In this document: positions 16,105 through 64,000 of the stretch, piece after piece | Layout of the letters: the number at the start of each line of letters is the position of its first letter | Numbering within the stretch: position 1 is the first letter of the stretch | Assembly: GCF_030687895.1 (NCBI RefSeq) | Contig: NZ_CP117452.1 | Span: forward strand, 3,923,501 to 3,987,500 | Length of the DNA: 64,000 bases | Direction: 5' to 3' | DNA from: Pseudomonas sp. FP198 | Lineage (GTDB): Bacteria > Pseudomonadota > Gammaproteobacteria > Pseudomonadales > Pseudomonadaceae | The notes under the pieces: model-generated | Database searches by the model: none | What the model saw: the letters and a program-made list of their open reading frames with translations, nothing else | What the model was told of the DNA's origin: nothing | Translations under genes and position numbers: made by a program

Positions 16105-16195
16105 TGTGGGAGCGAGCCTGCTCGCGAAGGCGGCGGTCCATTCAACATTGATGCAAGCTGAACCAGCCCATTCGCGAGCAGCCTCGCTCCCACAG
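16105..16195. repeat. REP palindrome pair (REPIN-like)
   Basis: TGTGGGAGCGAGCCTGCTCGCGAA at 16105 faces an inverted copy ending GCTCCCACA at 16195, separated by about 45 bases. It lies between the MscS promoter and the pirin gene end. Confidence 0.8.
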
Positions 16196-34167: not shown

Positions 34168-34212
34168 TGCCTTACCTGTGTTCGCCCTCGCACGGGCTTT
34201 ATCCAAGCTAGG

Positions 34213-34253: not shown

Positions 34254-34391
34254 CTCATCGCGAGCAAGCTCGCTCCCACAATGGATCTTGGTACATTCGG
34301 ATGGGTTGGTTTCGAGGCCGCCTTCGCGAGCAGGCTCGCTCCCACCGGTGGATTGCATTCCAATGTGGGAGCGAGCCTGCTCGCGAAGAGG
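34254..34391. repeat. Cluster of three REP units
   Basis: Three copies of the GGGAGCGAG(C)TTGCTCGCGA palindrome (about 34256-34280, 34321-34346 and 34362-34388), two in one orientation and the last inverted. They sit exactly between the divergent pvdP and pvdM promoter boxes. Confidence 0.75.
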
Positions 34392-37140: not shown

Positions 37141-37160
37141 TGACTGATCGAGAGCAATCG

Positions 37161-38036
37161 ATGAACCGATTTTTACTGAAGACGCTTCCGGCATTGGCCC
37201 TCACAGCCCTGCTACCCTCCAATGCCCAGGCCTCGCAACCGGGCCAGGTATTTCGCGACTGCAAGGACTGCCCGGAAATGGTCGTGCTGCCCACCGGCAC
37301 CTTCCAGATGGGCACGCCGGACAACGAGGTCGGCCGCGAGCCCGACGAAGGCCCGATGCACCCGGTGAAGTTCGACAAGCCGGTGGCAATCAGCCGCTTC
37401 CAGGTGCTCAAAGGCGAGTGGTTCGCCTACCTGCGCGACAGCGGCTACGTGATGCCTGACGGCGACAAGCGCCCCGGCCGCGCGTGCCAGGCCGGCGTCC
37501 CGGATTACCAGGGCAGCGATCCGCGCAAGCAATACACCGACCGGCACCCGGCGGTGTGCATGGATTTCGCCGAGGCCAGCGCCTACGTGGCGTGGCTGTC
37601 GAAAAAAACCGGCAAGCCGTATCGGTTGGTCAGCGAGTCCCTGCGCGAATACGCAGCGCGCGGCGGCAGCGATGGCCCGTTTCCCTTCCCGTTCGATGAA
37701 GGCAAGGACTACAGCATCGCCCAGCACGCCAATACCTACGGCGCCGCCGATGGCTACAACTTCACCGCGCCGGCCGGCAGCTTCGCGCCCAATGCCTTCG
37801 GCGTGTACGACATGCACGGCAACGTCTACGAATGGACCGCCGATTGCTTCAACGAAAACTACCTCAATGCTCCAGACGACGGCAGCGCCGCACTGACGGG
37901 CAACTGCAAAGTGCGGCGCATCCGTGGCAACGACTGGGGCGAAGCACCGGTGTTCTCCCGTTCGGGCAACCGCAACGCGGTGTTTTCCGATGCCCGCGGC
38001 GATTGGCTGGGGTTCCGGGTCGCCCGGGATATGTAA
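37161..38036 (+). CDS. pvdO: Formylglycine-generating-enzyme-like pyoverdine maturation protein
   Basis: 291 residues from ATG 37161 (GAG before it; ATG 37140, overlapping the pvdN stop as TGATG, is the alternative). Sec signal (LALTALLPSNAQA), then an FGE-sulfatase fold: MVVLPTGTFQMG, CMDFAEASAYVAWLSKKTGKPYRL-type segment, and GNVYEWTADCFNE. PvdO oxidises dihydropyoverdine to the mature chromophore. Last gene of the pvdMNO operon. A REP-class repeat follows. Confidence 0.93.
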   Translation: MNRFLLKTLPALALTALLPSNAQASQPGQVFRDCKDCPEMVVLPTGTFQMGTPDNEVGREPDEGPMHPVKFDKPVAISRFQVLKGEWFAYLRDSGYVMPDGDKRPGRACQAGVPDYQGSDPRKQYTDRHPAVCMDFAEASAYVAWLSKKTGKPYRLVSESLREYAARGGSDGPFPFPFDEGKDYSIAQHANTYGAADGYNFTAPAGSFAPNAFGVYDMHGNVYEWTADCFNENYLNAPDDGSAALTGNCKVRRIRGNDWGEAPVFSRSGNRNAVFSDARGDWLGFRVARDM

Positions 38037-44499: not shown

Positions 44500-46968
44500 T
44501 CAGAACTGCGGCGTGTACTTCACGGTAAACATCAGATTCCTCGGATCACCGAAGTTGTTGTTACCGTTGATCTGGTTGTAAGCCGGCGTGATATACGTCT
44601 TGTCAAACAGGTTGTTGGCATTGACCGCCAACCCGATCTCCGGCGTCAACTGATAGCCGACACGGGCATTCCAAACGGTATAACCCGGTACGTCATAGTT
44701 GAGGTCGAAGACCTGCGTATGGCTTTGAGTGGTGAAGCCCAGGCCGGCACTGGCACGGTTCCAGTCGCCAGTGAACTGGTAGTTGCCCCACACCCGCAAC
44801 ATGTGTTTCGGCGTCCAGGTACTGAAGACACTGCCTTCGTTATCCGGATCTTCCAGGTATTTGGTGGTGTTGTAGGTATAGCCCGCGAACAGCTGCAGAT
44901 TGTCGATCACCTCACCGCTGATCTCGGCCTCGATGCCCTGGCTGCGCACCTTGCCCGAGGCTGTCGAGCAACCGAAGCCACCACACCCCGAACCGCCGTC
45001 ATTGACCGCACGGTTTTCATGGTCGTAGCGGAAGACAGCCAGGGAAGTATTGACCCGACCGTCCATCAATTCACCTTTAAGACCCACTTCATAGTTGGTG
45101 CCAATGACGGGCTTGAGCACGGAGCCGTTGGCATCAACGTTGGTCTGCGGCTGGAACACGTCGGTGTAACTGGCGTACACCGCCCACTCACGAGTCAAAT
45201 CGTAGACGATACCGGCGTATGGCGTGACCTCCCCCGTCTCACTTCCAGTGCTCGGCGCGTTGGGGGTAATACCGGTTGCCCGTTCGGTTTTCGATTTGTA
45301 GCTGAAGTCATACCAGCTGACCCGGGAGCCCAGGATCAGCGTCAAGTCGTCCACCGGCTTGACGCGCCAGGTGCCGTATACGCCTTTCTGGCGGATGTCG
45401 TACTTGCTCAGTGTGCCCATGCCACCCGGGCTGTTGATCAGGCCCTCATAGCTGATGTCCGGACGGTTGTTGTCGAGGTCGAAGATATTGTCGGTGCTGC
45501 TGTTGAAGGTCCGGGCGTATTTGTCGTCCGTCTCCAGCTGGGAGTAGTTGCCGCCGAGCATGACCTCCTGCTCCATCGACAGGGCTTCGAACTTGCCCAC
45601 CAGGTTCATGTCCAGGCCCACCTTGGTGGACTGGAAGTCGGTGACGAAGTCGGCATATTGCACGCGGCTGCCATCCGGTAGCAGGCCACCGGGGCTTTGC
45701 GTGCGCTGGTTTTTCGCCTGGTTGTCTTCGGTCATCTGCACGGCACCGACCTTGAACGCCCAATCCTCGTTGAAGCGATGCTCCAGGTCGGCGTACAGCG
45801 TGGTGACGTCGATATCGGAACGGTTCCAGCGCGCGCCGGTGTAGGTCGAGCGCGACACGTCCGGCATCGAGCCATCGGCGTAGCGTGGCAAGCCGCGGAT
45901 GTTGCCGCGCGACTCGCCGTTGGATTGGCTGGCCGCGAAGCCCAGGGTGGTGTCTTCGCTCAGGTCGATGTCCAGCGAGCCATACAGCGAGTGGGTCTTG
46001 TTCCAGGCATGATCGACGAAGGAATTGCTCTGGTCTTCGTCGGCGACGATACGGCCGCGGATGTTGCCGGCCTCGTTCAGCGGGCCGCCGGCGTCCAGTT
46101 GCAGGCCGTAGTGATCCCAGGAGCCGGCCTTGCCGGTCAGGGTCACGGTCGGGGCGCTCTGGCCACGCTTGCGCACCAGGTTGACGGCGCCGCCGGGGCT
46201 GCCGGTGCCTTGCAGCAGGCCGGACGCGCCACGGAGGATTTCCAGGCGGTCGAAGAAGATCAGGTCCTGGGTCGCCCAGTTGCCCAGCGAGTAGGTGTTA
46301 CGCGGGATCGGCACACCGTCGTACTGCCAGTCGTCGATCTGGAAACCGCGCGACGACAGGATCATGCCCTGGCCGACGCCCTGCAGGCCGACGACGCCGG
46401 TGGTCTGGTTGACGGCGTCCTTGAGGCTGACCAGGTTCTGGTCATCCATCTGCTTGCGCGTCATCACCGTGATCGACTGCGGAATCTCCTTCAGGGTATG
46501 AGTGCCCTTGCCGATGGTCACGGCATTACTGGTGTACGAGTTGCTGCCTTCAGTGGTGGCCTCCGGCTGCTGCGCGTTGATGGTGGTCGCGCCCAGCTCC
46601 AGGCCTGCGCCGGAGCCCTTTACCAGCATCAGGGTATTGCCCTCGAGGCTGTGGCGCACGCCGGTGCCCTTGAGCAATTCGGCGATGGCCGCTTGCGGGC
46701 TCATCTTGCCGCTGACGCGATTGCTTTTCAGGCCGGCCAGTTCGTCGGCGTTATAGATCACTTGTTGGTTGGTCTGCTCGCCGAACGCTTGCAATGCCTG
46801 CGGCAGCGGTTGCGCAGGGATGTTGATGCTGACGTTTTCAGCCATCACCTGGGCGCTCAACGGCAACACGCAGACCAGACCCAGGCCCGTCAACACCCGG
46901 CGCGAACGCAGGCCGCGGGACATGACCAATGCCTTGAACAGCGGTTTCAACTCATGAATTGCCGACAT
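44500..46968 (-). CDS. fpvA: Ferripyoverdine TonB-dependent receptor
   Basis: 822 residues; start ATG 46968 with GAGAG before it. Signal peptide ends near VMA. STN domain (about 45-115) interacts with the FpvR anti-sigma factor. TonB box region and plug (about 150-280; LKEIPQSITVMTRKQM, RGFQIDDWQYDGVPIPRNTYS), then barrel to the C-terminal MFTVKYTPQF. Plug sequence and its place inside the pvd cluster identify FpvA. A barrel loop has DGGSGCGGFGCS, possibly a disulphide. No exact TAAAT-N16-CGT box was found upstream in 46969-47160, which fits control by FpvI instead. The selectivity should match the local pyoverdine peptide. Confidence 0.92.
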   Translation of the reverse strand: MSAIHELKPLFKALVMSRGLRSRRVLTGLGLVCVLPLSAQVMAENVSINIPAQPLPQALQAFGEQTNQQVIYNADELAGLKSNRVSGKMSPQAAIAELLKGTGVRHSLEGNTLMLVKGSGAGLELGATTINAQQPEATTEGSNSYTSNAVTIGKGTHTLKEIPQSITVMTRKQMDDQNLVSLKDAVNQTTGVVGLQGVGQGMILSSRGFQIDDWQYDGVPIPRNTYSLGNWATQDLIFFDRLEILRGASGLLQGTGSPGGAVNLVRKRGQSAPTVTLTGKAGSWDHYGLQLDAGGPLNEAGNIRGRIVADEDQSNSFVDHAWNKTHSLYGSLDIDLSEDTTLGFAASQSNGESRGNIRGLPRYADGSMPDVSRSTYTGARWNRSDIDVTTLYADLEHRFNEDWAFKVGAVQMTEDNQAKNQRTQSPGGLLPDGSRVQYADFVTDFQSTKVGLDMNLVGKFEALSMEQEVMLGGNYSQLETDDKYARTFNSSTDNIFDLDNNRPDISYEGLINSPGGMGTLSKYDIRQKGVYGTWRVKPVDDLTLILGSRVSWYDFSYKSKTERATGITPNAPSTGSETGEVTPYAGIVYDLTREWAVYASYTDVFQPQTNVDANGSVLKPVIGTNYEVGLKGELMDGRVNTSLAVFRYDHENRAVNDGGSGCGGFGCSTASGKVRSQGIEAEISGEVIDNLQLFAGYTYNTTKYLEDPDNEGSVFSTWTPKHMLRVWGNYQFTGDWNRASAGLGFTTQSHTQVFDLNYDVPGYTVWNARVGYQLTPEIGLAVNANNLFDKTYITPAYNQINGNNNFGDPRNLMFTVKYTPQF

Positions 46969-47262
46969 CGTGCTCTCTATTATTGGTAGAAGTGAAAAGT
47001 CCATGGGGGCCGAAGGGCCTGCCGCTCGCCAGCACGGTGTACCGCTGACCGACCCCTCCCCGGGTACGGTCATCCGGCTGGACGACAGCTAAATTTTTCC
47101 TGGACACAACCGGCGCCTGGGCAGCCCTGCCCGGGCCGATTTGCCCGCATACCTTAGTAAGACGCAGCACCTGGGAAAAACCGGAATGAGTTTATTTATC
47201 ATTCGCGCAAAAACTCAAAAAAAAGCCGATGCGAAGGGCACCGGCCTCTTGTTGATTGAAGC

Positions 47263-50200: not shown

Positions 50201-50506
50201 GACTTCCTCGGCCGGTTGTTCGCTGGCCTGTATCGTCAGTGGGAAGCGTCCCGCATGGGCCACCTGACGCAAACCGTGGAAACCGCCGACCTTGGTCAGT
50301 CGCGCGAGCAACATCGGCTGCTGTGCCACCAGCGTGTCGAAGGCGACCTGCAATCGCTGCGGGTCGAGATCACCGTCGATGACCACGCTCAGCCAACGCA
50401 AGGCCTCGCCACAGGTCACCGTGCCCGACAGTTGCTCAAGTGCCCGTTGCTGCTCGGGCGTCAGGGCGAAACCCGCTTCCTGCGTGTCCATCGTCACCTC
50501 GTTCAT
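47300..50506 (-). CDS. NRPS: degenerate C (interface-like)-A(Asp)-T
   Basis: 1068 residues. The N-terminal 440 residues have condensation-domain size and order, but the HHxxxDG motif is replaced by ARHSADAPS (about residue 140), so catalysis is unlikely. This fits the non-catalytic interface domains that recruit aspartyl beta-hydroxylases in siderophore NRPSs. Adenylation domain with FTSGSTGVPKG near 600; my specificity reading is DLTKVGHVGK, the aspartate code. Carrier GGHSLLV near 983, then a charged helical tail. The start overlaps the upstream NRPS stop (ATGA). With the hydroxylase fused to the upstream protein it should load beta-hydroxy-Asp, an iron ligand. Confidence 0.85.
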   Translation of the reverse strand: MNEVTMDTQEAGFALTPEQQRALEQLSGTVTCGEALRWLSVVIDGDLDPQRLQVAFDTLVAQQPMLLARLTKVGGFHGLRQVAHAGRFPLTIQASEQPAEEVRAQISETLGRAFVLGESASAQAVLYRLASRQWQLLLGVARHSADAPSMSLLLEQLRQAYAGDAAEEEAPGEFAQYLEWRSEVVLDEDAGTARNYWQQHLHGLQTAIDTPWLAARRAGGGTADAQISLIVEPARRDALRRLAEQLGQPLATLLQGAWWVLLGRLGGLEQALVGVRHDSRGDYDYFANAFGVFEKNLPLCVPLPADAPFSEWLAELATRLETHRTWQEYWTPELASEVAYPAYGFAIAPANPVRSSAGLTWATEPLPGRDAFELLLQIQLDDTQQLVAVDLCYARSGYSQAAVRNVLEQYEVLLASILAAAHTPLAQLNLLGDPEEQRLRAINPAMQALVDNRYLPQRIAELALQTPDAIALSDAGQSLSYGQLKDQVERIAQGLMDQGLGEGSIIALALPRSAELVIAMLASWRIGAAYLPLDIQWPQARQALMLEQAGAAVLLTDATHLPAWQAQPFKALAIAELDRASNTPLPALTTKGNDIAYVLFTSGSTGVPKGVVIEHRQLLNYTAQASQALGLSQCKHVALSSTVAADLGNTALFGALFNGATLHVASDEQMQDGALFAGFLREQQIDCLKIVPSHLAALLDSEQAMLPQLLVLGGEPIAPTLVERIARLRGDCRVFNHYGPTEATVGVMIHRLALDGAADDCSALTQVLGNNQVYVLDADRRLAPVGVLGEVYLGGAQLCRGYVNAEADEQTFIPSPFDPAQRLYRTGDLARYRADGGIQLHGRRDQQVKVRGFRIELAEIEAELLRVPQVAEALVLPGEQGLLAFVVPRQGLSSGVLDAARVELSARLPGVMVPQQLQLIERFPRLANGKIDRKALQQLAVAISDEEDAAPRDALEQLLAARMAQLLGLERLGIERDFFAAGGHSLLVIKLVAGIRKLLQCDIHPGLVFDHPTVASLAMALRAVEGSPGQLEKIAQVRLRMEALSPEEKARLTEQAQQLQAAKAAQGR

Positions 50507-53500
50507 GCTCCGCTTTCCTCGGTATTGAATGCGCCACGGACCGATCGCCCGGCGCCCGCTGGACGCTCCAGGCTGGCGTGGTCGTACATATCGCCCATGG
50601 CGACGACGATCTTGCGCGGTCCCTCGTACGGGTCGCGGGCGTGGGCCACGAGCATGTTGTCCAACAGGATCACGTCACCTTTGTGCCAGTCGAAACGCAC
50701 CGCGCAGGCTTCGTACAACTCACCGATACGCGCCATCACCTCGTCTTCGATCGGTGTGCCGTCGCCGTAGTACACGTGCCGGGGCATCCGCTCCAGGCCG
50801 TACATCGACAACAGGTCCTGGCGCACGTCCGGCTCCAGCCAATGGATGTGGTGCAGCTGCACCTGGTTGAAGAAGGATTTTTCCCCGGTGATCGGGTGCG
50901 TGATGACCGCCGGCCCCGGCGTGCGGGTCTGCAGCTCATCGTTATCGAGCCAGCGCCACTGGATGCCGCCGGCCCGGCAGCGGGCCTCCACTTCAAGGCG
51001 ATCCTCGGTCTTGAAGAAGTGCTGCCACGACACGTCGAGTTTGTCGGTGAAGGTACGCACGTACAGCAAGCCCTTGTCTTCGAACTTTTCGCGAAGGTCC
51101 GCCGGCAGCTTTTCGTACATCAGGCGGCAGTCCACTACCGGGGTCGCGCCGCCCACGGGTGCGGCCTGCTCGCAATAGAACATCTGCTTGCGCGGCCAGC
51201 GGTCCTGGTGGGAGCTCTCGTTGTGGAACAGGATCATCTTGCGTTCCGGGTACGGCGTGGAACGGTAGGTGTTCTTGCCGCCTTCCTTCTTCGGCAGGTC
51301 GCCGTACTGGCCGTACAGCCCCGGCTGGATGGCTTCGGCGAACGCTTCGAAGCCCTGGATACCGTCCAGTTCGAAGCCACGGAAAAGGATGCCGGCGTGC
51401 TCGGCCAGCTTCTGCTCGATCAATGGCCGGTTCTGGCGGATCCACTCGATGACGTCCAGGTGCGGCTCGCCGGGCTCCAGCATCAGCGGGAAACGCTGGG
51501 GCGCCGCCACCAGCGATTCGCGCACCAACGCCGGACGTGGCCGCGCGGCCGGGGTCGCCGAACGCTTGAGAAACTTGCCCAGTTTGTCGGCCTTGGGCCC
51601 CGGGACGTTGGCAGGCGTGGCGGCTGTCGCCACGTTGTCGACTGGCATGCTGATAGCTCCCAATTGAATGTCCTGATCAGCGACGATCTGTTCCAACAGG
51701 GCCGTCCAGGCCCGGATCAGGTACTGGATGCGCTCTTGTCCGAACAAGCTTGTGGCGAATTGCCAATTACCGCGCAACTGCCCTTCTTCTTCGTCAACGA
51801 ACAATGCCATGTCGAATTTAGAATGGTTCTGCAGCGCCGGCAGGAACTCGACGCTCAAGCCGGCCATGGAACGCGTGCGCACCGGCACGTTGTTCATCAC
51901 GAACAGCACCTGCAACAACGGGTTCATGCCCTTGTGCCGCGGCACGCCCGCGGCCTCGACGATCTGGTCGAACGGCAGGTCCTGATGCTCCAGCGCACCG
52001 AGCAGGTGATCCTGGGTCTGTGCCAGGAACCGGCTGAAGGCCACATCGGCGGCAAAGCGCGAACGCAACGGCAGGACGTTGACGAAGAAACCGATCAGGC
52101 GCTCCAGCTCGGGTTGTTCGCGTCCGGCCACGTCAGCGCCAACGACAAGATCCTGCGCGTCGCAGAGGCGATGCAACAACACCTGGAACGACGCCAGCAA
52201 CGTGCTGTACAGCGTGACGCCGGCCGCGCTCGACACCCGGCGCAACGCCGCGCTCAGCCCGGCAGGCAGCTCGAACTGCAGCGCATCGCCCGCATAGGAG
52301 GCCGTCTGGCCGCGCGGATTATCCAAAGGCAAATCAAGACGCCCGTGGTAACCGTCGAGCCGCTGCTTCCAATAATCGCCCTGGCGCGCCAGCACGCCCT
52401 GGTCTTCCAGCGCCTGCTGCCACAAGGCGAAGTCGTGGTACTGGACCTCCAGCGGCGCCAGCGGCATGGGCTCGCCGCGCAGGGACGCTCCGTAGATCTG
52501 CACCAATTCATTGATCAACAGCCCCATCGACCAGCCATCGGAAATGATGTGGTGCATGGCGTACAACAACACGTGCTCGGTCGGCCCCAGGCGCAGGATC
52601 CGCCCGCGCAGCAGTGGCGCCTGCTCCAGGTCAATCGGCGTACTGGCGTTGTCCAGGATCGCCTGGGCCACTTGTTCCTGCCGGGCACCGGGCGACAACT
52701 CGGACAGATCGACCAGCGGGAAATCCAGCCGGACCTCGTCGGCAATCAGCGCCAGCGGATCGCCTTCGTCATCCTGGACATACGCGGTGCGCAGCACGGC
52801 GTGACGGCGTGTCACTTCGGCGAAGCTGCTCATCAGCCGCTCGACCGACAACTCGCCGCACAACCGCAGCGCCATGGGCATGCCATAGGCGGAGGTGCCG
52901 CCAGCCAACTGCTCGGCGATCCACAACCGCCGCTGCACCAGCGACAGCGGTGCCGATTGCCGTGGCCCATGGGCCTTGAGTCGGACCTGGCTGGAATCGC
53001 CGGCCCGCTCCGCGCCGTCGCCGGTCTCGCTCATCAGCGCGGCCAGTGCCTTGAGTTGCGGATGGTCGAACAGGTCGCGCAGGCTCAGCGGATAACGCGT
53101 CAGCTTGCGCAGCCGGGAGACGGCCTGCGTCGCCAGCAAGGAGTGACCGCCGCGCTCGAAGAAATGGTCGTTGCGCCCGACCTGTTGCACTTCCAGCACT
53201 TCTTGCCAGATGCCGGCGATCCGGTGCTCCAGCTCGTTGGCCGGCGCCTCGTAACCGCCCTGCGATGATCCGGTTTCGATGCTCGGCAAGGCCTTGCGGT
53301 CGAGCTTGCCGTTGGGGGTCAGTGGCAGGTGATCGAGGAACAGCCAGTGGGCCGGGATCATGTAGTCCGGCAGGTGTGCCTTGATCTGGTCGCGCAGCGT
53401 TTTAGCGTCCTGCTGCAGCGCCGGGGCAACCACATAAGCCACCAACTGCTGGCCGCCCGGCCCTTCCTGGGCCAGCACGGCGACGTCGTTTACCTCGGCT

Positions 53501-54546
53501 TGCTGCAACAGCCGCGCCTCGATTTCCCCCATCTCGATGCGGAAGCCGCGGATCTTCACCTGATGGTCGAGTCGGCCTTGGTACTCGAGCACGCTATCGG
53601 CGCGATAGCGGCACAGGTCGCCGGTGCGATACAGGCGTTCGCCGGTGGTCGAGAACGGGTTCGGCACGTATTTTTCGGCGGTCATCGCCGCACGCCCGAG
53701 GTAACCCCGGGTGATGCCCGCGCCGCTCAGGTACAGCTCCGCCGAGACGCCTTGCGGCACCGCTTGCAGGTTGGCGTCCAGCAGGTAGCTGGCGGTGTGC
53801 TTGAGCGGGCGGCCGATGTTCGCCGTACCGCCGGCGGTGCGGCGGGTCCAGGTGGAATAGGTGGTGTCTTCCGAGGGGCCATACAGGTCATAAACATGCT
53901 CAACCCCACCGACCTGTGCACCCACCACCTGTGGGAGCGAGCTTGCTCGCGATGGCGTCCTGGCAGTTAGCCCCTCATCGACTGACCCACCGCTATCGCG
54001 AGCAAGCTCGCTCCCACAGGTGATAGGTGTCGGGTAGAGGGCATCCACCAGACTCTGCTTCAGCGGCTCACCGGCCAGGTTGATGATGCGCACGCTGTGC
54101 GGGATCTCGCCGCTGCGCTGCAACGCGGCGATCGCCGAAGGCACGCTGTTGATCAGGCGCACCTGGTCGCGGGCCGGCAGGTGCGGCAGTTCCAGGGCGT
54201 TGCGGGCGATGATCAGCGAGCCGCCGTTGGCGAGGGTGACAAACAGCTCCCATACCGACAGGTCGAAGCACACCGAGGTGGAAGCGAGTACGCCCTGGAT
54301 GTCGTCGCGGCTGTAGACGGTTCTGGACCAGTCGATCAGCGCCAGGACGTTTCGGTGGGCGATGGCCACGCCCTTGGGCTTGCCGGTGGAACCGGAGGTG
54401 TAGATGACGTAGGCGAGGTTGTCTGGGGTGACGCCTGTAACGGGCGCACTCAGTAGATAACGTGAAAGGTCGAGCTGATCGAGCATCAACACTTGCGTCT
54501 CGGCCGGAACCGTCAGCGTCTGCGCCACCGCCTGCTCGGTCAGCAC
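50503..54546 (-). CDS. NRPS fragment: A(Ala)-T-C plus C-terminal TauD/SyrP-type hydroxylase
   Basis: 3' part of the NRPS that begins beyond 64000; separated from the preceding coding segment by a frameshift near 54548. Adenylation domain from IYTSGSTGKPKG onward; specificity reading DLWNNALTYK, closest to alanine codes I remember. It contains a REP-derived insertion of about 37 residues just before VYDLYGPSEDTT. Carrier GGHSLLA near 468; complete condensation domain with MHHIISDGWS near 670; then, from about 990, a TauD/clavaminate-synthase-like dioxygenase (metal site FHNE and VAHARDPYEGPRK) that should beta-hydroxylate carrier-bound Asp. The stop overlaps the next NRPS start. Confidence 0.82.
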   Translation of the reverse strand: MLTEQAVAQTLTVPAETQVLMLDQLDLSRYLLSAPVTGVTPDNLAYVIYTSGSTGKPKGVAIAHRNVLALIDWSRTVYSRDDIQGVLASTSVCFDLSVWELFVTLANGGSLIIARNALELPHLPARDQVRLINSVPSAIAALQRSGEIPHSVRIINLAGEPLKQSLVDALYPTPITCGSELARDSGGSVDEGLTARTPSRASSLPQVVGAQVGGVEHVYDLYGPSEDTTYSTWTRRTAGGTANIGRPLKHTASYLLDANLQAVPQGVSAELYLSGAGITRGYLGRAAMTAEKYVPNPFSTTGERLYRTGDLCRYRADSVLEYQGRLDHQVKIRGFRIEMGEIEARLLQQAEVNDVAVLAQEGPGGQQLVAYVVAPALQQDAKTLRDQIKAHLPDYMIPAHWLFLDHLPLTPNGKLDRKALPSIETGSSQGGYEAPANELEHRIAGIWQEVLEVQQVGRNDHFFERGGHSLLATQAVSRLRKLTRYPLSLRDLFDHPQLKALAALMSETGDGAERAGDSSQVRLKAHGPRQSAPLSLVQRRLWIAEQLAGGTSAYGMPMALRLCGELSVERLMSSFAEVTRRHAVLRTAYVQDDEGDPLALIADEVRLDFPLVDLSELSPGARQEQVAQAILDNASTPIDLEQAPLLRGRILRLGPTEHVLLYAMHHIISDGWSMGLLINELVQIYGASLRGEPMPLAPLEVQYHDFALWQQALEDQGVLARQGDYWKQRLDGYHGRLDLPLDNPRGQTASYAGDALQFELPAGLSAALRRVSSAAGVTLYSTLLASFQVLLHRLCDAQDLVVGADVAGREQPELERLIGFFVNVLPLRSRFAADVAFSRFLAQTQDHLLGALEHQDLPFDQIVEAAGVPRHKGMNPLLQVLFVMNNVPVRTRSMAGLSVEFLPALQNHSKFDMALFVDEEEGQLRGNWQFATSLFGQERIQYLIRAWTALLEQIVADQDIQLGAISMPVDNVATAATPANVPGPKADKLGKFLKRSATPAARPRPALVRESLVAAPQRFPLMLEPGEPHLDVIEWIRQNRPLIEQKLAEHAGILFRGFELDGIQGFEAFAEAIQPGLYGQYGDLPKKEGGKNTYRSTPYPERKMILFHNESSHQDRWPRKQMFYCEQAAPVGGATPVVDCRLMYEKLPADLREKFEDKGLLYVRTFTDKLDVSWQHFFKTEDRLEVEARCRAGGIQWRWLDNDELQTRTPGPAVITHPITGEKSFFNQVQLHHIHWLEPDVRQDLLSMYGLERMPRHVYYGDGTPIEDEVMARIGELYEACAVRFDWHKGDVILLDNMLVAHARDPYEGPRKIVVAMGDMYDHASLERPAGAGRSVRGAFNTEESGA
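53926..54022. repeat. REP palindrome pair inside an NRPS adenylation domain
   Basis: Perfect terminal arms CACCTGTGGGAGCGAGC...GCTCGCTCCCACAGGTG enclosing a spacer of about 40 bases. The coding frame of the NRPS passes through it without a stop, adding roughly 37 residues (ITCGSELARDSGG ... SRASSLPQVV). Confidence 0.9.
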
Positions 54547-55112
54547 ACCCGTGCGCGACTGTCCTCAAGCATGTAGGCCATGCGTTCGGCCGGGTAATCC
54601 GGGTCCAGCGGCACGTACGTGCCGCCGGCCTTGAGCACCGCCAGCAAGGCGATCAGCAATCGCTCGGAACGCGGCATCGCCACGCCCACCCGCACTTCCG
54701 GGCCGACGCCCAGTTCGATGAGCTTGTGGGCCAGGCGATTGGCCCGGCCGTCGAGTTCGCTGTAGCTCAGGCGCGTGTTGGCGAAGGTGACCGCCAATGC
54801 GTCAGGAGTAGATTGCGCTTGGCGGGCGATCAGTTGGTGGATGCACAGGTCTTGTTCGAACGGCGCATCGACCGGGTTCCAGTCATGGGTCAAACGTTGA
54901 TGCTCATCGAATTCCAGCATCGACAGTTCACCCAGGCAGCGCTCGCCATTGGCGCTCATCTGCCCAAGCAACTGCGCCAGATGCGCCGCCAGCCGCTCAA
55001 CCGTAGCGGCCGAGAAGCTCGCCCGCTGATAACTCATGTGCAGCGACAACTGCCGCTCCAACCCCACCAGCAGCGTCAACGGATAGTTGGTCTGCTCCTG
55101 AGTCACGGCGAG
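54540..55112 (-). pseudogene. NRPS middle segment, end of C and start of A, out of frame on both sides
   Basis: This segment reads VTQEQTNYPLTLLVGLERQL (end of a condensation domain) through LTHDWNPVDAPFEQ and LSYSELDGRANRLAHKL to YMLEDSRARV (first part of an adenylation domain). It continues the protein of the larger upstream frame and precedes that of the downstream frame, but sits in a third frame. Restoring one base near 55109 and one near 54548 (CGG-GTG-.TG-CTG to RVLLTE) would fuse all three into one gene. The open frame extends upstream to 55460 only as a shadow. Confidence 0.8.
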
Positions 55113-58100
55113 CCAAAGCGCAAACCGTCCGGCGCGCCCTGCTCCAACGTCTGGGCGATCGGATAGTTCTCGAACACCAGCAGGCTGTCGAACAGCGCGT
55201 CGCCGCCCTGCCCGGCCCAGCGCTGGATGTCGAGCAACGCGGTGTGCTCGAACTCGCGCAGGGCCAGGTTCTGCGCCTGCACCGCTTGCAGCCAACTGTC
55301 CAGGGATTGCTCGGCCCGAGGGCTGGCGATCACTGGCAAGGTGTTGATGAACAGACCGATCTGCTGCTCGATGCCGGGCAAATCCGCCGGACGCCCGGCC
55401 ACGGTCGCGCCGAAGGCTACCGTTTCTCGACCGGTGTAGCGCTGCAACAGCAGCAGCCACGCCGCTTGCACCAGCGTGTTGACGGTGACTTTCGAGGCGC
55501 GTGCGAAGGCTTCCAGGCGGCGGGTCAGCGCTTCATTCAGAAGCTGCATATGATCGCCGTAGCCGGCGCCCGTGTCGGCCGGTTTGGCCACCGCATCGGC
55601 CAGTCGTGTTGGCGCGTCCAGCTGCTGCAGCGCCGGTTTCCAGAACGCTTCGCTGGCCGCCGCGTCCTGGCGTTGCAGCCAGGCGATGTAGTCGCGGTAG
55701 CGGCTGCCGGACACGGCGACGGATTGACCGCTGTAGCGTTGCAACACTTCGCCGAGGAGCTGCGAGTTGCTCCAGCCGTCCATGAGGATGTGATGGCAGG
55801 TGTAGATCAAGTGATAACGTTCGTCCGCCACGCGCACCACCACCAACCGCAACAACGGCGCCGCATCCAGGGCAAATCCTTGCTCGCGCTGGGCCGTTGC
55901 GAGGGCGTTCAGGTGCTCAGGCAGGTCAGCCTGCGTACGTGCGTCATGCAGCTGCAACGCGACCTCCACGCGCTTGTGCACCACCTGCAATGCACGCTTG
56001 AAATCACCCTCCCAGACAAAACCGCTGCGCAGCACGTCGTGGGCGTCGGTCGCCGCTTGCCAGGCCTGGCGGAAGCGCTCGACGTCCAGCCCTTCGACAT
56101 CCACGCGCATCTGGTTGATGTAGTGGCCGGCCTGCTGCTCGTACAACGTGTGGAACAGCATGCCCTGCTGCATCGGCGACAGCGGATAGATGTCCTCCAC
56201 GTCGCGCGCCACCAGCGGCAAGGCGTCCAACTGTTGCTGTTGCAATCCGGCCAGGGCGAAGTCCGACGGCGTGAACCCGTGGTGCCGCGGCTCGCAACAG
56301 TGGTCGATCAGCGTCTGCAATTCCCCGGCGTAATCCTCGGCCAGCGCCTGGATCGTCGCTTCGTCGAACATCTGCGAGCTGAACGTCCAGTCGATGCTCA
56401 ACTCGCCGGCATAGACGCTGCCGTTGAGCGTCAGCCAGTTGTCCAGCGGCGCCAACGGACTCTGCGCCGCGCCCGCCGATTCGCTGGCCGGGACAAACAG
56501 GCCGTCGGCGTCGTCGGCAAAGCCGCTGTCGAACTGGCCCAGGTAGTTGAAGGTGATGCGCGGCACGGGCAGCGCCGCGAGGGTGCGCCGCGTCGGTTCA
56601 TCGCCCAGGTAACGCAACACGCCGAAGCCGAGCCCTTTGTCTGGGATCGCCCGCAGTTGCTCCTTGATCGCCTTGATCGAACCTTCGGTGGTGGCCGTCG
56701 GGGTCAGGCGCACCGGGAACAGGCTGGTGAACCAACCGACGCTGCGGCTCAGGTCCACATCCTCGAACAGCGCCTCACGGCCATGGCCCTCCAATTGAAT
56801 CAAGGTCGAGGCCTGGGAAGTCCAACGGCCAATCACCCGCGCCAGCGCGGTCAACAGCAGGTCGTTGACCTGGGTGCGATAAGCCGCCGGCGCTTGCTGC
56901 AACAGGCGTCGGGTCTGGTCCTTGTCCAGTCGCGTCTGGACCTGGGTCGCGTGGCACCTGCGCACATCGCCCTCTGGACGGTCGCAAGGCAAGTCCTGAC
57001 CGGCGCCTTGCAGTTGCTCTTGCCAATACTTCAGCTGGGACTGCAACGTCGCGCTGCCTGCATGAGCCTGCAACCGCTGCGCCCAGGTCTGCGCAGCAGT
57101 GGTCTTGGCTGGTAACGCTGGCGTCTGGCCGGCCTGCAATTGCTCGTACGCCTGTTGCAGGTCCTCCAGCAGAACACGCCAGGACACGCCGTCCACCACC
57201 AGGTGATGGATCACCAGCAACAGTCGCTGGCTGCCGTCGGCCAGGCTCGCCAGCACCCCGCGCAGCAGCGTGCCTTCTTGCAGGTCGAGGCTGCGTTGGG
57301 CTTGTTCGGCCAAGCGTTCAAGGGCCGGCGCATCGGCCACCTCGGCGGTCCACAACAGCGGCGAGCGCTGCCAGAACGTACGCTGTTCGGCCAGGGTATT
57401 GTGGCGCGCGGTCCAGGTGCCTGCCTCGCAGACGAAGGCCAGGCGCAACGCATCGTGATGCTCGACCAGGGCCTGCAACGCCTGCTCCAGATGCGCGGCA
57501 TCCACGGCGCGCAAGCTTTTGAGCAACACCGACTGGTTCCAATGATGAGGCTCGGCCATGGCTTGTTCGAAAAACAACTGCTGGAACGGCAGCAATACCG
57601 TCTGCCCGACCACCGGGCCCTGATCGATGACCGGCCCGTTGTCTCCGGTCGTTGCCACCCCGGCGAGGCCCTGGATGGTCTGGTGCAGGAACAGGTCCTT
57701 GGGACTGAAATGAATCCCGGCCTGACGGGCGCGACTCACCACCTGGATGGAAATGATCGAATCGCCGCCCAGCTCGAAGAAATTGTCGGTCCGCCCTACG
57801 CGTTCGCGCCCGAGCACGCTTTGCCAGATCGCGGCCAAAGTGTTTTCCACGACGGTGACCGGGGCACTGTAGCTCTTCGGGCTGGCGCTCGGATCGGCCT
57901 TCGGCAGAGCCTTGCGCTCAAGCTTGCCGTTGGGGCTGACCGGCATTTTTTCCAGCCACACCCAGTGTTGCGGCACCATGTAGTCGGGCAAGGACTGGCT
58001 CAGATGTTCCCTGAGGCGCACTTGCAGCGCCTGGCGAACGGCGTCATCGGCGGCCAGCAGCTCGGCGCGCGCCGGCACCACGTAGGCCACCAGCAACGTG

Positions 58101-61100
58101 CCGTCCTGGGCCAGGACCACGGTTTCGCGTACCGCCTCGTGTTCGGCCAGACGCGCTTCGATTTCGCCCAACTCGATGCGCAGGCCACGGATTTTCACCT
58201 GATGGTCCATTCGCCCGGCGTATTCGATCACGCCATCGGCCCGATAACGTGCCAGGTCGCCGGTGCGATACAAGCGCTGGCCAGCGCCGAACGGCGCGGT
58301 GACGAACCGTTCGGCGGTCAACGCCGCGCGCCGATGGTAACCGCGCGCCAGCCCTTCGCCCGCCAGGTACAGCTCGCCGATCACCCCGACCGGTACCGGC
58401 GACAGCTCATCGTCGAGAATGTAGGTGCCAAGGTTGGCGATCGGCTGTCCGATCGGCACGCTGTCGCGGCCCTCCTCGACGCAGGTCCAGTGGGTCACGT
58501 CGATGGCCGCCTCGGTCGGGCCGTAGAGGTTGTACAGACTGGCATCCGGCAGTTTGGCGAACACCTGCTGCTGGGCATCCACCGGCAGCGCTTCACCACT
58601 GCAGACGATCCGCTTGAGGCTGGTGCATTCGGCGACCCGCGGGTCCTGCACGAACGCCTGGAGCATCGACGGTACGAAGTGCAGCGTGGTGATGCGCTGC
58701 GCGGTGATCAGCTCGATCAGTTGCGCCGGGTCGCGATGGGCCCCCGGCGCAGCCACCACCAGCGTCGAGCCGGTCAGCAGCGGCCAGAAGAATTCCCACA
58801 CCGACACGTCGAAACTGAACGGCGTTTTTTGCAACACACTGTCAGTCGCATCGAGGCCATAGGCCTGCTGCATCCAGCACAAGCGGTTGACCAGGGCGCA
58901 ATGGCGATTGCCCGCGCCCTTGGGCTTGCCGGTGGAACCGGAGGTGTAGATGACATAGGCCAGGTTTTCGCCGTGAACCTTGACGTCGGGATTCTCCTCA
59001 CGACTGGCATGCGACTCCTCAGCGGGCAGGTCCAGTAGCAGACTGCGCAGTCCTTGCGGGATCGGCAAGGCATCAAGCAGGTGTTGCTGGGTCAGCAGCA
59101 AACCGATGCCGCTGTCTTCGAACATATAGGCCAGGCGATCCTGCGGGTACTCAGGGTCCAACGGCACGTAGGCGCCGCCGGCCTTGAGGATCGCCAACAG
59201 CCCGAGCACCATCTCCACCGAACGTTCCACGGCGATGCCCACCAGCACATCGGGGCCGACGCCCAGGTCGATCAAGCGATGGGCCAGACGGTTGGCCCGG
59301 GCGTTGAGCTCACGGTAGCTCAGGCGCTGCTCGCCGAAGACCAGCGCAGGCGCATCCGGGGTCCGGCGTATCTGTTCCTCGATCAGCGCCTGGACGCTGC
59401 GCTCAAGCGGGTATTGCCGCGCCGTGGCGTTCCAGTCGATGAGCATGTGCCGACGCTCGTCCTCGTCCAGCAGCGACCATTGCGCCACCGGGCGGTGCAG
59501 GTCCTGCACCAGGCTGCGCAACAGGTTGAGCCAATGCCCGGCCATGCGTTCGATGGTCGCCGGCTCGAACAGGTCGGTGGCGTAGGTCAGGGCAGCGTGC
59601 AGGCCCTGGGGACTTTCGACGGTGTCCAGGCTCAGGTCGAATTGCGCGGTGCGCTGCGTCCAGCCTACGGGTTCGACGTCGAGCCCCGGCAAGGCCTTGG
59701 CAAACACCGAGGCGGTTTCGTTGCGGTGGTTGAACATCGCCTGGAACAGCGGGCTGTGGCTCAGGTTGCGCTGCGGCTGCAGGGCATCCACCAGTTGCTC
59801 GAAGGGCAGGTCCTGATGCATCTGCGCGGCCATGGCCGTCTGTTTGAGCTGTTGCAGCAAAGCGGCGCCGGTCAGGTCGCCGGGGAATTCGCTGCGCAGG
59901 ACCTGGGTGTTGACGAAGAACCCGATCAAGCGCTCGGTTTCCAGCCGTTGGCGGTTGGCGATCGGCACGCCGACGCGGATGTCGGCCTGGCCGCTGTAGC
60001 GATGCAGCAATGCCTGGAACGAGCCGAGCAACAGCACGAACAGCGTGACGTTTTCTTGCCGGGCCAAGGCCTTGAGGTCATCGCTCAAGGCGCGATCCAG
60101 CACGATCGGCAGGCGTGCGCCGCGCAGGCTTTGTTGCGCTGGGCGCGGGTGGTCGGTGGGCAGCTCCAGCAGCGGCTGTTCGCCGCCCAGTTGCGTCGAC
60201 CAATAGGCCAGTTGGCGGTCCCGCTCACCGGCCGCCATCCATTGCCGCTGCCAGACCGCGTAGTCGGCATATTGCACCGCCAAGGGCGGCAGCTGTGCCG
60301 GTTGACCTTGGACGAAAGCCGAGTACAGGCTCATCAGGTCATCGACCATCACCTGCAACGACCAGCCGTCGGAGACGATGTGATGCAGCGTCAGCACCAG
60401 CAGGTGATCTTCCTCGGCCACTTCCAACAGCGCCACGCGCAGCAGCGCGTCATTCAGCAGATCGAACGGGCGTTGCGTCTGCTGCCCGAGGAAGGCCTGG
60501 ATATCGCGCCCTTCCAGACGCTGCTCGGTGTAGTCGACTTCGCCCTGCTCACAAATGACCTGGCAGGTGCGTCCATCCTCTTCCACGAATGCGGTGCGCA
60601 AGCTTTCGTGGCGCTGGACCAGTGCGGCAAAGCTCTTGCGCAGCGCGTCCTTGTCCAATGCGCCGCGCATGCGCAACGCGGTCGGTATGTTGTAGGCGGC
60701 GCCGTCGGGGTCCATTTTCCAGAGGAACCACTGGCGCTCCTGGGCAAAGGACAACGGCAACGGCGCGTCGCGAGGCGCCGGCGTCATGGCCGGGGCCTGT
60801 TCGCCTGTCGTGGTATCGAAGGCGGCGACGAACGCCTGCAACGTGCTGTGTTCGAACAGGCTGCGCAGCGGCACTTCGATGCCGAGCACCCGACGGACCC
60901 GCGAGACCACCTGGGTCACCAGCAGCGAATGCCCGCCCAGTTCGAAGAAATTGTCTTCCAGCCCCACGCGTTCAAGCTTGAGCACGTCCTGCCAGATTGC
61001 CGCGACCTGTTGCTCGACCTCACTGCGCGGCGCCACGTAGGCCTGCTGCAAATCGCTGGCTTCAGGCGCTGGCAAAGCCTTGCGATCGATCTTGCCGTTG

Positions 61101-64000
61101 GGCGTCAGCGGCAGTTGCGCCAGGAACAACAGGTGCGCCGGCACCATGTATTCCGGCAACTGCGCCTTGAGGGCCGCCTTGAGTGCGGTGCGCAACGGCG
61201 CGTCCGGCGCCGGCACTGCGCCGCTGGCGGGCACCACATAAGCCACCAATTGCGCGCCGGTCGGGCCTTCGTGGGCCACCACCACGGTTTCGCGCACGCG
61301 GTCCTGGGCCAGCAGCGCGGCTTCGATTTCCCCCAGCTCGATACGCAGGCCGCGGATCTTCACCTGATGGTCGATCCGGCCGAGGTACTCGACCACGCCT
61401 TCGGCGCGATAACGGCACAGGTCGCCGGTGCGGTACAGGCGCTCGCCCGTGGCGGAAAACGGGTCCGGCACGAAGCGTTCGGCGGTCAGCGCCGGACGCT
61501 GGAAATAACCACGGGCCAGGCCGGCGCCACCGATCAGCAGCTCCCCCGGCGCACCGGGCGGATTGAGGCTCAGGTCGCTGCCGACGATGTACAGCGCGGT
61601 GTTGTCCAGCGGTTTACCGAGGAACGGACGGTCGCGCTCCGGGCTCAGCGGATGCAGCGCCGACCAGATGGTGGTTTCGGTCGGGCCGTAGAGGTTCCAG
61701 ACGTTCGGCGAAAGCGCCAGCAAGCGCTGCGCCAGTTCCAGCGGCAACGCTTCGCCGCCGCAGAGGAAGGTCCGCCCGGCCAGCAGCGAAGCCTGCTCGT
61801 GATCGAGCAACATGCGCCAGCTCGACGGCGTGGCTTGCAGCACGCTGACAGCGTGTCGTTCGATCAGCGCCAGCACCGCTTGCGGGTCCTGGTGCACGTT
61901 CTGGCCGGTCAGCACCACGCTGGCCCCGGCCGACAGAGGTCCGTAGATTTCCAGGCCGAAAATATCGAAAGAGAACGTCGTCAATGACAGCATGCGGTCG
62001 CCGGGCACGAGACCCGGCTCGGCGATCATGCTGTGGATGAAATTGCTCAGGGCGCCATGGCGCACCATCACGCCCTTGGGCTTGCCGGTGGAACCGGAGG
62101 TGTAGATGACGTAGGCCAGGTGTTCGCCAGTCAGCGGCACCACCGGGCAGGTTTGCGGGGCTGCTTGCAGGGCGGCGTCCGGCTGGTCCAGCAACAGCGT
62201 CTGAAGACTTGGCGGGATCGGTAAGCGAGCCTGCAAACGGGCCTGGGTCAGCAGCAGTCCGATGCCGCTGTCCTCGATCATGTAGGCCAGGCGATCCTCG
62301 GGGTACGCCGGATCCAGCGGCACATAGGCGGCGCCGGCCTTGAGGATCGCCAGCAGGCCGACAATCATCTCGACGCTGCGCTCCACCGCGATGCCCACCA
62401 ATTGGCCGGGCATCACGCCCAGGTCGATCAGGCGATGGGCCAGTTGGTTGGCGCGCGCGTCCAGTTGTGCGTAGCTCAGGGCCTGGTCGTCGATGGTCAG
62501 CGCCAGCGCCTCGGGGTTGCGGCGCACCTGTTCGGCAATGTGCTGGTGCACGCAAACGGCTTCGTCAGTGTGGTCGGCCACCCGCAGCCATTGCTGCTGC
62601 GTGAGTTGCTGTTGCGCCGAGTCGAGCAGCGGCAGTTCGCCAATACGCTGGCGTGGCGCATCGACGATGCCGTGCAGCAGGTTCTGCCAGTGCCCGGCCA
62701 GGCGCTCGATGGTCGGCGCGTCGAACAGGTCGGTGGCGTAGGTCAGTTCCGCAGCGATGCCCTGCGCGGTCTCATAGGTGCCCAGGGTCAAGTCGAACTG
62801 GGCGGTACGCCCTTCCCATACCAGGTCCTCGACCTGCAGTTGCGGCAGGTGCATCTGCCGGCTTCGAGTGGCGTCGGCGTTCTGGTGGTTGAACATGACC
62901 TGGAAGATCGGGCTGTGGCTGAGGCTACGCTCAGGTTGCAGGGCCTCGATCAATTGCTCGAATGGCAAGTCCTGATGGGCCTGGGCCGCCATGGCCGACT
63001 GCTTGACCTGGGCGAGCAACTGATCAAACGGCAGTTGCCCCTCAACGTCGGCACTGAGTACCTGGGTGTTGACGAAAAAGCCGATCAGCCCTTCGGTCTC
63101 GACCCGGTTGCGGTTGGCCGTCGGCACGCCCACGCGGATCTGCGGTTGCCCGCTGTAGCGGTGCAGGAGCGCCTGGAACGAGGCCAGTAGGACCATGAAC
63201 AGACTGGCGCCTTCACGCTGGGCCAGTTGCTTGAGCGCGGTGGCCAGTTCCGCGCCCAGGGTCAAATCCAGGCGCGCGCCACGAAAGCTCTGCACCGGCG
63301 GGCGCGGATGATCAAACGGCAGTTCAAGCACCGGTTGTTCGTCACCGAGGGTCTGGACCCAATAGGCCAATTGACGCTCACGCTCGCCGGCCTCCAGCCA
63401 GTGCCGTTGCCAGATCGCATAATCAGCGTATTGCACCGGCAGATCCGGCAAGGCCAGCGGCTGGCCGCCGATGTCGGCGGCGTAGTGCCGGACCAGCTCA
63501 TCCACCAGCACCTGCATCGACCAGCCATCGGCAATGATGTGGTGCTGGATGAGCACCAGCACATGGTCGTCTTCGGCAACTTTCAACAGCGAAACCCGCA
63601 GCAACGGCCCTTGGCGCAGATCGAACGGACGCGCGGTTTCACCTTCGACGCAGGCCTTGATACGTTCGTCCTGGCTGGCCGGCGAACCGGCGGGCAGCGC
63701 CTCGACCGCGATGCTCAAGGGCATATGTTGATGAATGATTTGCTCGGTTTGCTCGCCGTGCTCGGCGAACGTGGTGCGCAAGCTTTCGTGGCGCTCGACC
63801 ACGGCATTGAAGCTGCGCTCCAGCGCCGGCACGTCCAGTTGCCCTTTGAGGCGCAGGGCGCTGGGGATGTGGTAAGCCGAGCTGTGGCGGTCCATCTGCC
63901 AGAGAAACCACTGGCGCTCCTGGGCGTAGGACAGCGGCAGATGTTCAAACCCGGAACGCACCTCGGGGATCGGCAGGTTGGCCGGCGAGACGCCCTCTTC
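55103..64000 (-). CDS. Pyoverdine NRPS, C-A(Gly)-T-C-A(Ser)-T-E-C, open at window edge
   Basis: About 2965 residues visible; the frame is open to 64000, so the 5' end lies outside. Residue numbers count from 63961. C domain HHIIADGWS near 145; A1 (motif near 625) reads DILQLGLIWK, glycine; carrier GGHSLL near 1010; C HHIVSDGWS near 1195; A2 (near 1680) reads DVWHVSLIDK, serine; carrier GGDSII near 2067; epimerisation domain with HHLVVDGVSWR near 2255, EGHGRE near 2390, RSVGWFTSLFPV and FNYLG, so D-Ser; then a D-specific-position C domain with HHILMDGWS near 2725. It stops at 55103 because of an apparent one-base loss inside the C domain. PvdI/PvdJ-type, in the same gene as the two following segments. 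Confidence 0.88.
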   Translation of the reverse strand, partial: EEGVSPANLPIPEVRSGFEHLPLSYAQERQWFLWQMDRHSSAYHIPSALRLKGQLDVPALERSFNAVVERHESLRTTFAEHGEQTEQIIHQHMPLSIAVEALPAGSPASQDERIKACVEGETARPFDLRQGPLLRVSLLKVAEDDHVLVLIQHHIIADGWSMQVLVDELVRHYAADIGGQPLALPDLPVQYADYAIWQRHWLEAGERERQLAYWVQTLGDEQPVLELPFDHPRPPVQSFRGARLDLTLGAELATALKQLAQREGASLFMVLLASFQALLHRYSGQPQIRVGVPTANRNRVETEGLIGFFVNTQVLSADVEGQLPFDQLLAQVKQSAMAAQAHQDLPFEQLIEALQPERSLSHSPIFQVMFNHQNADATRSRQMHLPQLQVEDLVWEGRTAQFDLTLGTYETAQGIAAELTYATDLFDAPTIERLAGHWQNLLHGIVDAPRQRIGELPLLDSAQQQLTQQQWLRVADHTDEAVCVHQHIAEQVRRNPEALALTIDDQALSYAQLDARANQLAHRLIDLGVMPGQLVGIAVERSVEMIVGLLAILKAGAAYVPLDPAYPEDRLAYMIEDSGIGLLLTQARLQARLPIPPSLQTLLLDQPDAALQAAPQTCPVVPLTGEHLAYVIYTSGSTGKPKGVMVRHGALSNFIHSMIAEPGLVPGDRMLSLTTFSFDIFGLEIYGPLSAGASVVLTGQNVHQDPQAVLALIERHAVSVLQATPSSWRMLLDHEQASLLAGRTFLCGGEALPLELAQRLLALSPNVWNLYGPTETTIWSALHPLSPERDRPFLGKPLDNTALYIVGSDLSLNPPGAPGELLIGGAGLARGYFQRPALTAERFVPDPFSATGERLYRTGDLCRYRAEGVVEYLGRIDHQVKIRGLRIELGEIEAALLAQDRVRETVVVAHEGPTGAQLVAYVVPASGAVPAPDAPLRTALKAALKAQLPEYMVPAHLLFLAQLPLTPNGKIDRKALPAPEASDLQQAYVAPRSEVEQQVAAIWQDVLKLERVGLEDNFFELGGHSLLVTQVVSRVRRVLGIEVPLRSLFEHSTLQAFVAAFDTTTGEQAPAMTPAPRDAPLPLSFAQERQWFLWKMDPDGAAYNIPTALRMRGALDKDALRKSFAALVQRHESLRTAFVEEDGRTCQVICEQGEVDYTEQRLEGRDIQAFLGQQTQRPFDLLNDALLRVALLEVAEEDHLLVLTLHHIVSDGWSLQVMVDDLMSLYSAFVQGQPAQLPPLAVQYADYAVWQRQWMAAGERDRQLAYWSTQLGGEQPLLELPTDHPRPAQQSLRGARLPIVLDRALSDDLKALARQENVTLFVLLLGSFQALLHRYSGQADIRVGVPIANRQRLETERLIGFFVNTQVLRSEFPGDLTGAALLQQLKQTAMAAQMHQDLPFEQLVDALQPQRNLSHSPLFQAMFNHRNETASVFAKALPGLDVEPVGWTQRTAQFDLSLDTVESPQGLHAALTYATDLFEPATIERMAGHWLNLLRSLVQDLHRPVAQWSLLDEDERRHMLIDWNATARQYPLERSVQALIEEQIRRTPDAPALVFGEQRLSYRELNARANRLAHRLIDLGVGPDVLVGIAVERSVEMVLGLLAILKAGGAYVPLDPEYPQDRLAYMFEDSGIGLLLTQQHLLDALPIPQGLRSLLLDLPAEESHASREENPDVKVHGENLAYVIYTSGSTGKPKGAGNRHCALVNRLCWMQQAYGLDATDSVLQKTPFSFDVSVWEFFWPLLTGSTLVVAAPGAHRDPAQLIELITAQRITTLHFVPSMLQAFVQDPRVAECTSLKRIVCSGEALPVDAQQQVFAKLPDASLYNLYGPTEAAIDVTHWTCVEEGRDSVPIGQPIANLGTYILDDELSPVPVGVIGELYLAGEGLARGYHRRAALTAERFVTAPFGAGQRLYRTGDLARYRADGVIEYAGRMDHQVKIRGLRIELGEIEARLAEHEAVRETVVLAQDGTLLVAYVVPARAELLAADDAVRQALQVRLREHLSQSLPDYMVPQHWVWLEKMPVSPNGKLERKALPKADPSASPKSYSAPVTVVENTLAAIWQSVLGRERVGRTDNFFELGGDSIISIQVVSRARQAGIHFSPKDLFLHQTIQGLAGVATTGDNGPVIDQGPVVGQTVLLPFQQLFFEQAMAEPHHWNQSVLLKSLRAVDAAHLEQALQALVEHHDALRLAFVCEAGTWTARHNTLAEQRTFWQRSPLLWTAEVADAPALERLAEQAQRSLDLQEGTLLRGVLASLADGSQRLLLVIHHLVVDGVSWRVLLEDLQQAYEQLQAGQTPALPAKTTAAQTWAQRLQAHAGSATLQSQLKYWQEQLQGAGQDLPCDRPEGDVRRCHATQVQTRLDKDQTRRLLQQAPAAYRTQVNDLLLTALARVIGRWTSQASTLIQLEGHGREALFEDVDLSRSVGWFTSLFPVRLTPTATTEGSIKAIKEQLRAIPDKGLGFGVLRYLGDEPTRRTLAALPVPRITFNYLGQFDSGFADDADGLFVPASESAGAAQSPLAPLDNWLTLNGSVYAGELSIDWTFSSQMFDEATIQALAEDYAGELQTLIDHCCEPRHHGFTPSDFALAGLQQQQLDALPLVARDVEDIYPLSPMQQGMLFHTLYEQQAGHYINQMRVDVEGLDVERFRQAWQAATDAHDVLRSGFVWEGDFKRALQVVHKRVEVALQLHDARTQADLPEHLNALATAQREQGFALDAAPLLRLVVVRVADERYHLIYTCHHILMDGWSNSQLLGEVLQRYSGQSVAVSGSRYRDYIAWLQRQDAAASEAFWKPALQQLDAPTRLADAVAKPADTGAGYGDHMQLLNEALTRRLEAFARASKVTVNTLVQAAWLLLLQRYTGRETVAFGATVAGRPADLPGIEQQIGLFINTLPVIASPRAEQSLDSWLQAVQAQNLALREFEHTALLDIQRWAGQGGDALFDSLLVFENYPIAQTLEQGAPDGLRFGSP

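Follow-up and report, generated by a model that had tools for sequence, protein, structure and literature searches.

How a complete REP pair (REPIN) comes to lie in frame within a gene for an NRPS, and whether the enzyme tolerates it, is the question raised by a locus in the 64-kb stretch of DNA analyzed here (hereafter, the window). The element occupies part of one A domain in a pyoverdine synthetase, in the interval from the AGEPL helix to YGPSE (Table 1), and its REP arms, 22-mers of sequence GTGGGAGCGAGCTTGCTCGCGA, lie on opposite strands at 53931-53952 (+) and 53996-54017 (-). The original prediction that it is a REP pair with inverted ends like those of the pairs at 10027 and 16105 was confirmed, as the arms match the arm at 10027 exactly and the arm at 16106 with one mismatch. 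A total of 11 REP-arm matches (three mismatches or fewer) were found in the window, while 0.00 were expected in shuffles, and a chance origin of these matches was therefore rejected. Three features of a REPIN were found: two inverted REPs surround a short spacer (inverted repeat at 53919-54029, with arms of 39 nt and a complementarity of 92%), the unit has a typical length (87 nt, the other REPINs found in the genome being 86-88 nt), and the arm is highly repeated in its own genome (G000), with 531 exact matches to the 22-mer on both strands. The mostly extragenic position of REPINs, which is a habit of most members and no strict criterion, is broken by an element inside an NRPS coding sequence. 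The coding strand of 53908-54033 is predicted to fold as RNA with an energy of -90.1 kcal/mol (z of -9.5 against shuffles).

As had also been proposed for an element in the middle of a coding sequence, the minus-strand NRPS frame stays open throughout. The 42 codons (53908-54033) that are read between AGEPLKQSLVDALY and GVEHVYDLYGPSE include the full REP pair. The distance from AGEP to YGPSE is 69 residues in the window copy versus 30 in homologs, and the estimate of about 37 added residues was corrected to a net gain of 39.

The ORF that carries the element is only a fragment of the synthetase, and two changes of frame, at about 54.5 and 55.1 kb, lie within 1.2 kb of the element. We took the cluster to be that of pyoverdine because PvdP scores above its curated cut-off and the PvdO match falls just below its own. 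The A domain with the element is probably of the alanine type; its pocket residues, read by hand, presumably specify this amino acid, in agreement with the first assignment. Three REP arms are also clustered in the pyoverdine region, at window positions 34258-34386.

Table 1 Positions of the element, the synthetase reading frames, and the neighboring pyoverdine genes in the window
Feature	Position	Strand	Remarks
REPIN (REP pair) in A-domain coding sequence	53926..54022	-	Arms exact to the genome REP arm; inverted repeat
42 added codons: REPIN and short non-homologous flanks	53908..54033	-	Compared with 95 empty-site homologs of 30 residues
ORF with the element: part of A domain, then T, C, and C-terminal TauD-type domain; pyoverdine synthetase	50503..54546	-	
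Second reading frame, same synthetase: end of C domain, start of A domain	54540..55460	-	
Third frame, same synthetase: upstream modules, extending past the window end	55103..64000	-	
Block identical to the neighboring synthetase gene except for two one-base gaps	53284..55722	-	2.44 kb; putative conversion tract
PvdP, pyoverdine tyrosinase	32551..34206	-	NF051454, 1054.8 bits (cut-off 625)
PvdO-like, dihydropyoverdine dehydrogenase	37140..38036	+	496.6 bits, slightly below the cut-off of 500
TonB-dependent siderophore receptor, downstream of the synthetases	44500..47073	-	

The original prediction implied a rare survivor in one strain. This was refuted, as REP-derived inserts occupy the same site in no fewer than 12 of the 398 genomes of the genus (15 A-domain copies) and, among the 546 proteins of the protein database that match the region, REP-encoded residues are present at the site in 32 of the 120 listed. 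A strain-specific insertion was thus rejected, and the segment is instead old, shared, and hypervariable. The alternative that would have refuted the prediction, an ancient, diverged protein loop, held only in part: the segment looks ancient, yet it is still a near-perfect REPIN.

The counts rest on two queries of the 398 genomes. A 91-residue query from upstream of the insert gave strong matches (E <= 1e-42) in 103 genomes, and a 76-residue query across the insert gave full-span open matches in 10 and a partial match in an eleventh, G290, its other matches being mostly ordinary REPs. The 12 carriers are a lower bound, as 27 weaker places of the upstream query were left out and G281 was missed by the query across the insert. 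We read 110 A-domain copies from genus genomes and two from P. frederiksbergensis SI8; three fetched copies had no motif match, one of which was 30 residues long by eye and two of which were excluded from the counts. The 95 genus copies other than the 15 with inserts have exactly 30 residues each, and both SI8 copies have 29. Two insert copies were found in G000, G153, and G290, and one in each of G267, G298, G205, G268, G210, G341, G035, G125, and G281. Named carriers are P. brassicacearum subsp. neoaurantiaca CDVBN10, Pseudomonas sp. RGM2987, and P. tehranensis (taken as G153, G298, and G035, respectively). A search of 194 genomes of relatives (E <= 1e-13) returned G000 and G035 alone. The source names of the listed proteins include P. 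brassicacearum, P. alvandae, P. ogarae, P. thivervalensis, P. hefeiensis, and P. citrulli, several of which we take to be members of the P. corrugata group.

Within this genome, the NRPS element seems to be an exception. No clear second coding REPIN was found among 49 other sampled G000 REPINs, judged by ORF length and position (one by eye, and five with Pfam), the comparison covering REPINs away from the termini of long frames in a genome with several hundred more REP arms. Two Y1_Tnp (RAYT-like) genes, either of which may act on the element, are present, L273 (G000:C1:4203583) and L274 (G000:C1:4614554); three REPINs in L243 lie some 3-5 kb from the former. Elsewhere in the genus, a REP-like in-frame match lies within 937-residue open frames (G062:C1:1591435-1591539 and G373:C1:42361-42465) and is possibly another coding REPIN.

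We then considered whether the shared site reflects one old insertion or several. In a tree of 458 flanking bases, the insert being excluded, the 15 insert copies and four empty copies (G112, G160, and the two of SI8) form a single clade with a support of 100/99, and the presence of the insert requires three changes versus a shuffled mean of 14.3. The inner order of this clade is poorly settled, and the empty copies of G112 and G160 fall inside it. Four genomes have two copies in the clade, and in each of them the two are sisters in the tree, as conversion predicts. The spacer core of the G000 insert scores 0.85-0.88 against the G153a insert (opposite orientation) and 0.85 against the G290 insert (opposite orientation and another arm type), versus 0.74 against the best of the 49 sampled REPINs of its own genome. 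The insert was closer to the NRPS insert of another genome than to any of the 49 G000 REPINs in 10 of the 11 full-REPIN carriers, with the pool being a similarity-picked sample of G000 and own pools being compared for G205 and G290 alone. The exception is G298 (0.71 to other NRPS inserts versus 0.74 to a genomic REPIN); G125, in which the spacer is lost, falls outside this comparison. A recent REPIN copy with a donor in its own genome was unsupported in G000, where the best of the 49 sampled copies reaches 88%, and in G290 (84%), while in G205 one genomic copy reaches 91% and would allow an own-genome source there.

The main rival is recurrent independent insertion, in which the loop would be a target site for RAYT-driven REPINs in either direction and selection would retain those in frame. 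Arm types, junctions, flank lengths, and orientations do differ among species, and arm type partly tracks the REP pool of the host, which would fit repeated insertion too. AAAGC arms are found in the inserts of G035, G125, G290, and G281, whose genomes hold 87-344 such arms, and GGGC arms in the insert of G205 alone, with 585 in its genome. The correspondence is partial, as the G298 insert has CC-type arms (176 in the genome) despite 910 GGGC arms, the G268 insert is of another type with 473 GGGC arms in the genome, and the G267 insert is not of the AAAGC type with 150 such arms in the genome. The nested or partial REPs inside the inserts of G035, G125, G290, and G281 suggest at least one further entry of REP sequence into the site, and the 91% genomic copy in G205 and the two Y1-transposase genes of this genome point the same way. 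Against this, the spacer cores are common across species and closer to each other than to the sampled G000 REPINs in nearly all carriers compared, and the carriers are confined to one A-domain clade, the other 95 genus copies reading without an insert. Recurrent insertion is thus a rather unlikely account of the site as a whole, although we keep it as the main rival, and we conclude that a single old insertion, later inverted in place, is the probable origin of the inserts, as the flanks and spacers suggest.

The inserts are found in both orientations at the site. Watson-Crick pairing holds for 257 of the 270 arm pairs of ten distinct 87-nt inserts; every change at arm pairs 9 and 22 is present on both arms, and at pair 12 two inserts are altered on both arms and three on a single arm. 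It should be noted that pairs 12 and 22 vary among genomic REPINs as well, so these changes could also be drawn from the REP pool. Hairpins were confirmed in the inserts of G290 and G035. In L113 (G153:C51), an in-frame tandem duplication of the REPIN and its AGEPL flank follows AGEPL (G153a), both units being inverted relative to the sister gene. SI8 lies inside the G000/G153 subclade without an insert, and its junction bears CCCACAG, the end of a REP, a state compatible with loss of the insert leaving a footprint; P0064 and P0079 likewise look like deletion remnants. Template switching between inverted repeats is described as homogenizing arms and inverting spacers in yeast coding DNA (Abraham and Hazkani-Covo 2021, PMC8604942), and the paired arm changes and spacer inversion seen here match that published signature. 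The system covered in the available part of that paper involves yeast and short repeats, whereas a full REPIN in an enzyme domain is concerned here. We infer that template switching was the likely agent.

The original prediction left two outcomes for the surviving REP pair, a tolerated insertion or a gene that no longer works, and the copy in the window bears on both. A 191-bp region around the element has a second copy, 100% identical, 11,133 bp away in the neighboring synthetase gene, just beyond the window. The 2.44-kb block around it has sharp edges and zero substitutions, and outside of it the identity of the two genes falls to about 60-75% or less. To judge from this comparison, the block is a tract of recent gene conversion or A-domain replacement. 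Relative to the twin gene, one-base gaps near 54.5 and 55.1 kb throw the window copy out of frame. Because these two gaps are the sole differences across 2.44 kb of repeat, we favor an assembly error in the repeat as the explanation of the two apparent frameshifts; otherwise, they would represent real decay. Should they be real, the window synthetase could be a decaying pseudogene and the element a passenger of relaxed selection. The proximity of both frameshifts to the element and the several proteins on chromosome-size contigs that terminate inside the insert speak for this reading, which we nonetheless consider improbable: the twin gene, whose element is identical, reads as an open frame of 4,160 residues, 12 of the 32 listed insert-bearing proteins share the TauD domain of the window gene and have open frames (4,520-4,572 residues), and differences of this kind in a repeat are expected of an assembly error.

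Tolerance fared better. Synthetase frames with the insert are open in the genomes counted above, the 32 listed proteins bear REP-encoded residues at the site as well, and a structure model of the RGM2987 insert copy (39 sequences) has a pLDDT of 86.7, with values below 50 for the insert residues; a first model (14 sequences, mean pLDDT 50.8) was too poor and was discarded. The insert is thus predicted to be a disordered loop in an otherwise normal A-domain fold, at what appears to be a surface loop, and the enzymes bearing inserts presumably work. The tolerated half of the prediction therefore stood, its one-strain rarity did not, and the dead-gene half received mixed support: the window copy has its two frameshifts in a repeat where the assembly is unreliable, while broken alleles do exist at the same site elsewhere. 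Indeed, six listed protein clusters from chromosome-size contigs end within the insert and one leaves the frame just after it. The notion that the insert is always in frame was rejected on account of such proteins (P0163 and similar), and, judging from these alleles, the insert is not invariably harmless. Of note, a C7 run at the insert junction in G281 (left junction of L160) could slip. A fluorescent pyoverdine producer is on record in the P. corrugata subgroup, P. bijieensis XL17 (PMC8878242, available part).

How does this element compare with known systems? The REPINs of Pseudomonas (Bertels and Rainey 2011, PMC3116915) are alike in having two inverted REPs, a unit of about 87 nt, a hairpin, and hundreds of exact arm copies. 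In the portion of that paper available to us, only 14 of 1,067 copies of the most frequent 16-mers in strain SBW25 overlap genes; in contrast to the SBW25 REPINs, the present element is intragenic and found at the same site in several species. Intragenic REPs as such are established for the GTAG/CGTC type, in which whole REPs or dimers lie in frame in annotated genes, with a REP at about the same site of recB in two Xanthomonas species (Di Nocera et al. 2013, PMC3733652). The available text of that study names no NRPS, and the present case differs from it in involving numerous species and inserts in either orientation, along with nesting, inversion, remnants of deletion, and gene conversion. 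Rickettsia palindromic elements (RPE), as described in parts of the same paper, are also palindromes translated as extra protein segments, but they occupy many genes per genome, whereas one site in one enzyme family is concerned here, with no clear second coding case among the 49 other REPINs sampled in this genome. A-domain recombination is established for pyoverdine NRPSs: A domains are replaced inside one synthetase or across different ones, and the breakpoints have a hotspot that begins near the A5 motif (Calcott et al. 2020, PMC7486941; PMC11366639). Our case resembles such A-domain substitution in the exchange of an A-domain block between synthetases; the available parts of those papers are without mention of REPs, whereas the block exchanged here contains one. 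Interrupted A domains (5wmm type) have a folded catalytic domain inserted, and membership in this class was rejected, as the insert consists of 42 codons, is predicted to be disordered in its RGM2987 counterpart, and holds no catalytic domain. Our literature search, from which most subscription journals fall outside coverage, found no earlier description of a REPIN within the A domain of an NRPS. Intragenic REPs being already known, a REPIN shared at one NRPS A-domain site is a new variation on that theme.

Taken together, these observations lead us to a history that we hold with reasonable, though not full, confidence: one ancient REPIN insertion that was inherited, template-switched, nested, duplicated, deleted, and gene-converted, with in-frame versions being tolerated. 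In some ancestral member of the Pseudomonas fluorescens complex, one REPIN would have entered the loop that joins the AGEPL helix to the A5 strand (YGPSE), a single origin that we infer from the flanks and spacers. In-frame versions would have been tolerated because stop codons are scarce in two of the three frames of this REPIN family, whichever way it is read, and because the site is apparently a surface loop. Template switching between the inverted arms would then keep the arms matched and flip the spacer, REP sequences would nest within the insert, and tandem duplication and occasional deletion would follow. Gene conversion between sister synthetase genes would carry the whole A domain, element included.

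A bolder suggestion, for which we hold out little expectation, is that the REPIN acts as a self-renewing generator of variation, in which template switching, inversion, nesting, and slippage vary the loop by the substrate pocket, and in which a poly-C junction may switch the synthetase on and off. If true, this would be a contingency-like locus for a public-good siderophore, with switching in populations. More broadly, the site looks like a natural time series of a mobile palindrome caught in a protein, with inversion, arm correction, nesting, duplication, loss, and conversion. How REPINs remain palindromic where spread is hard thus becomes testable with existing genomes, as does the extent to which NRPS A domains tolerate insertions in the segment from the pocket to motif A5, a point of relevance to NRPS engineering.
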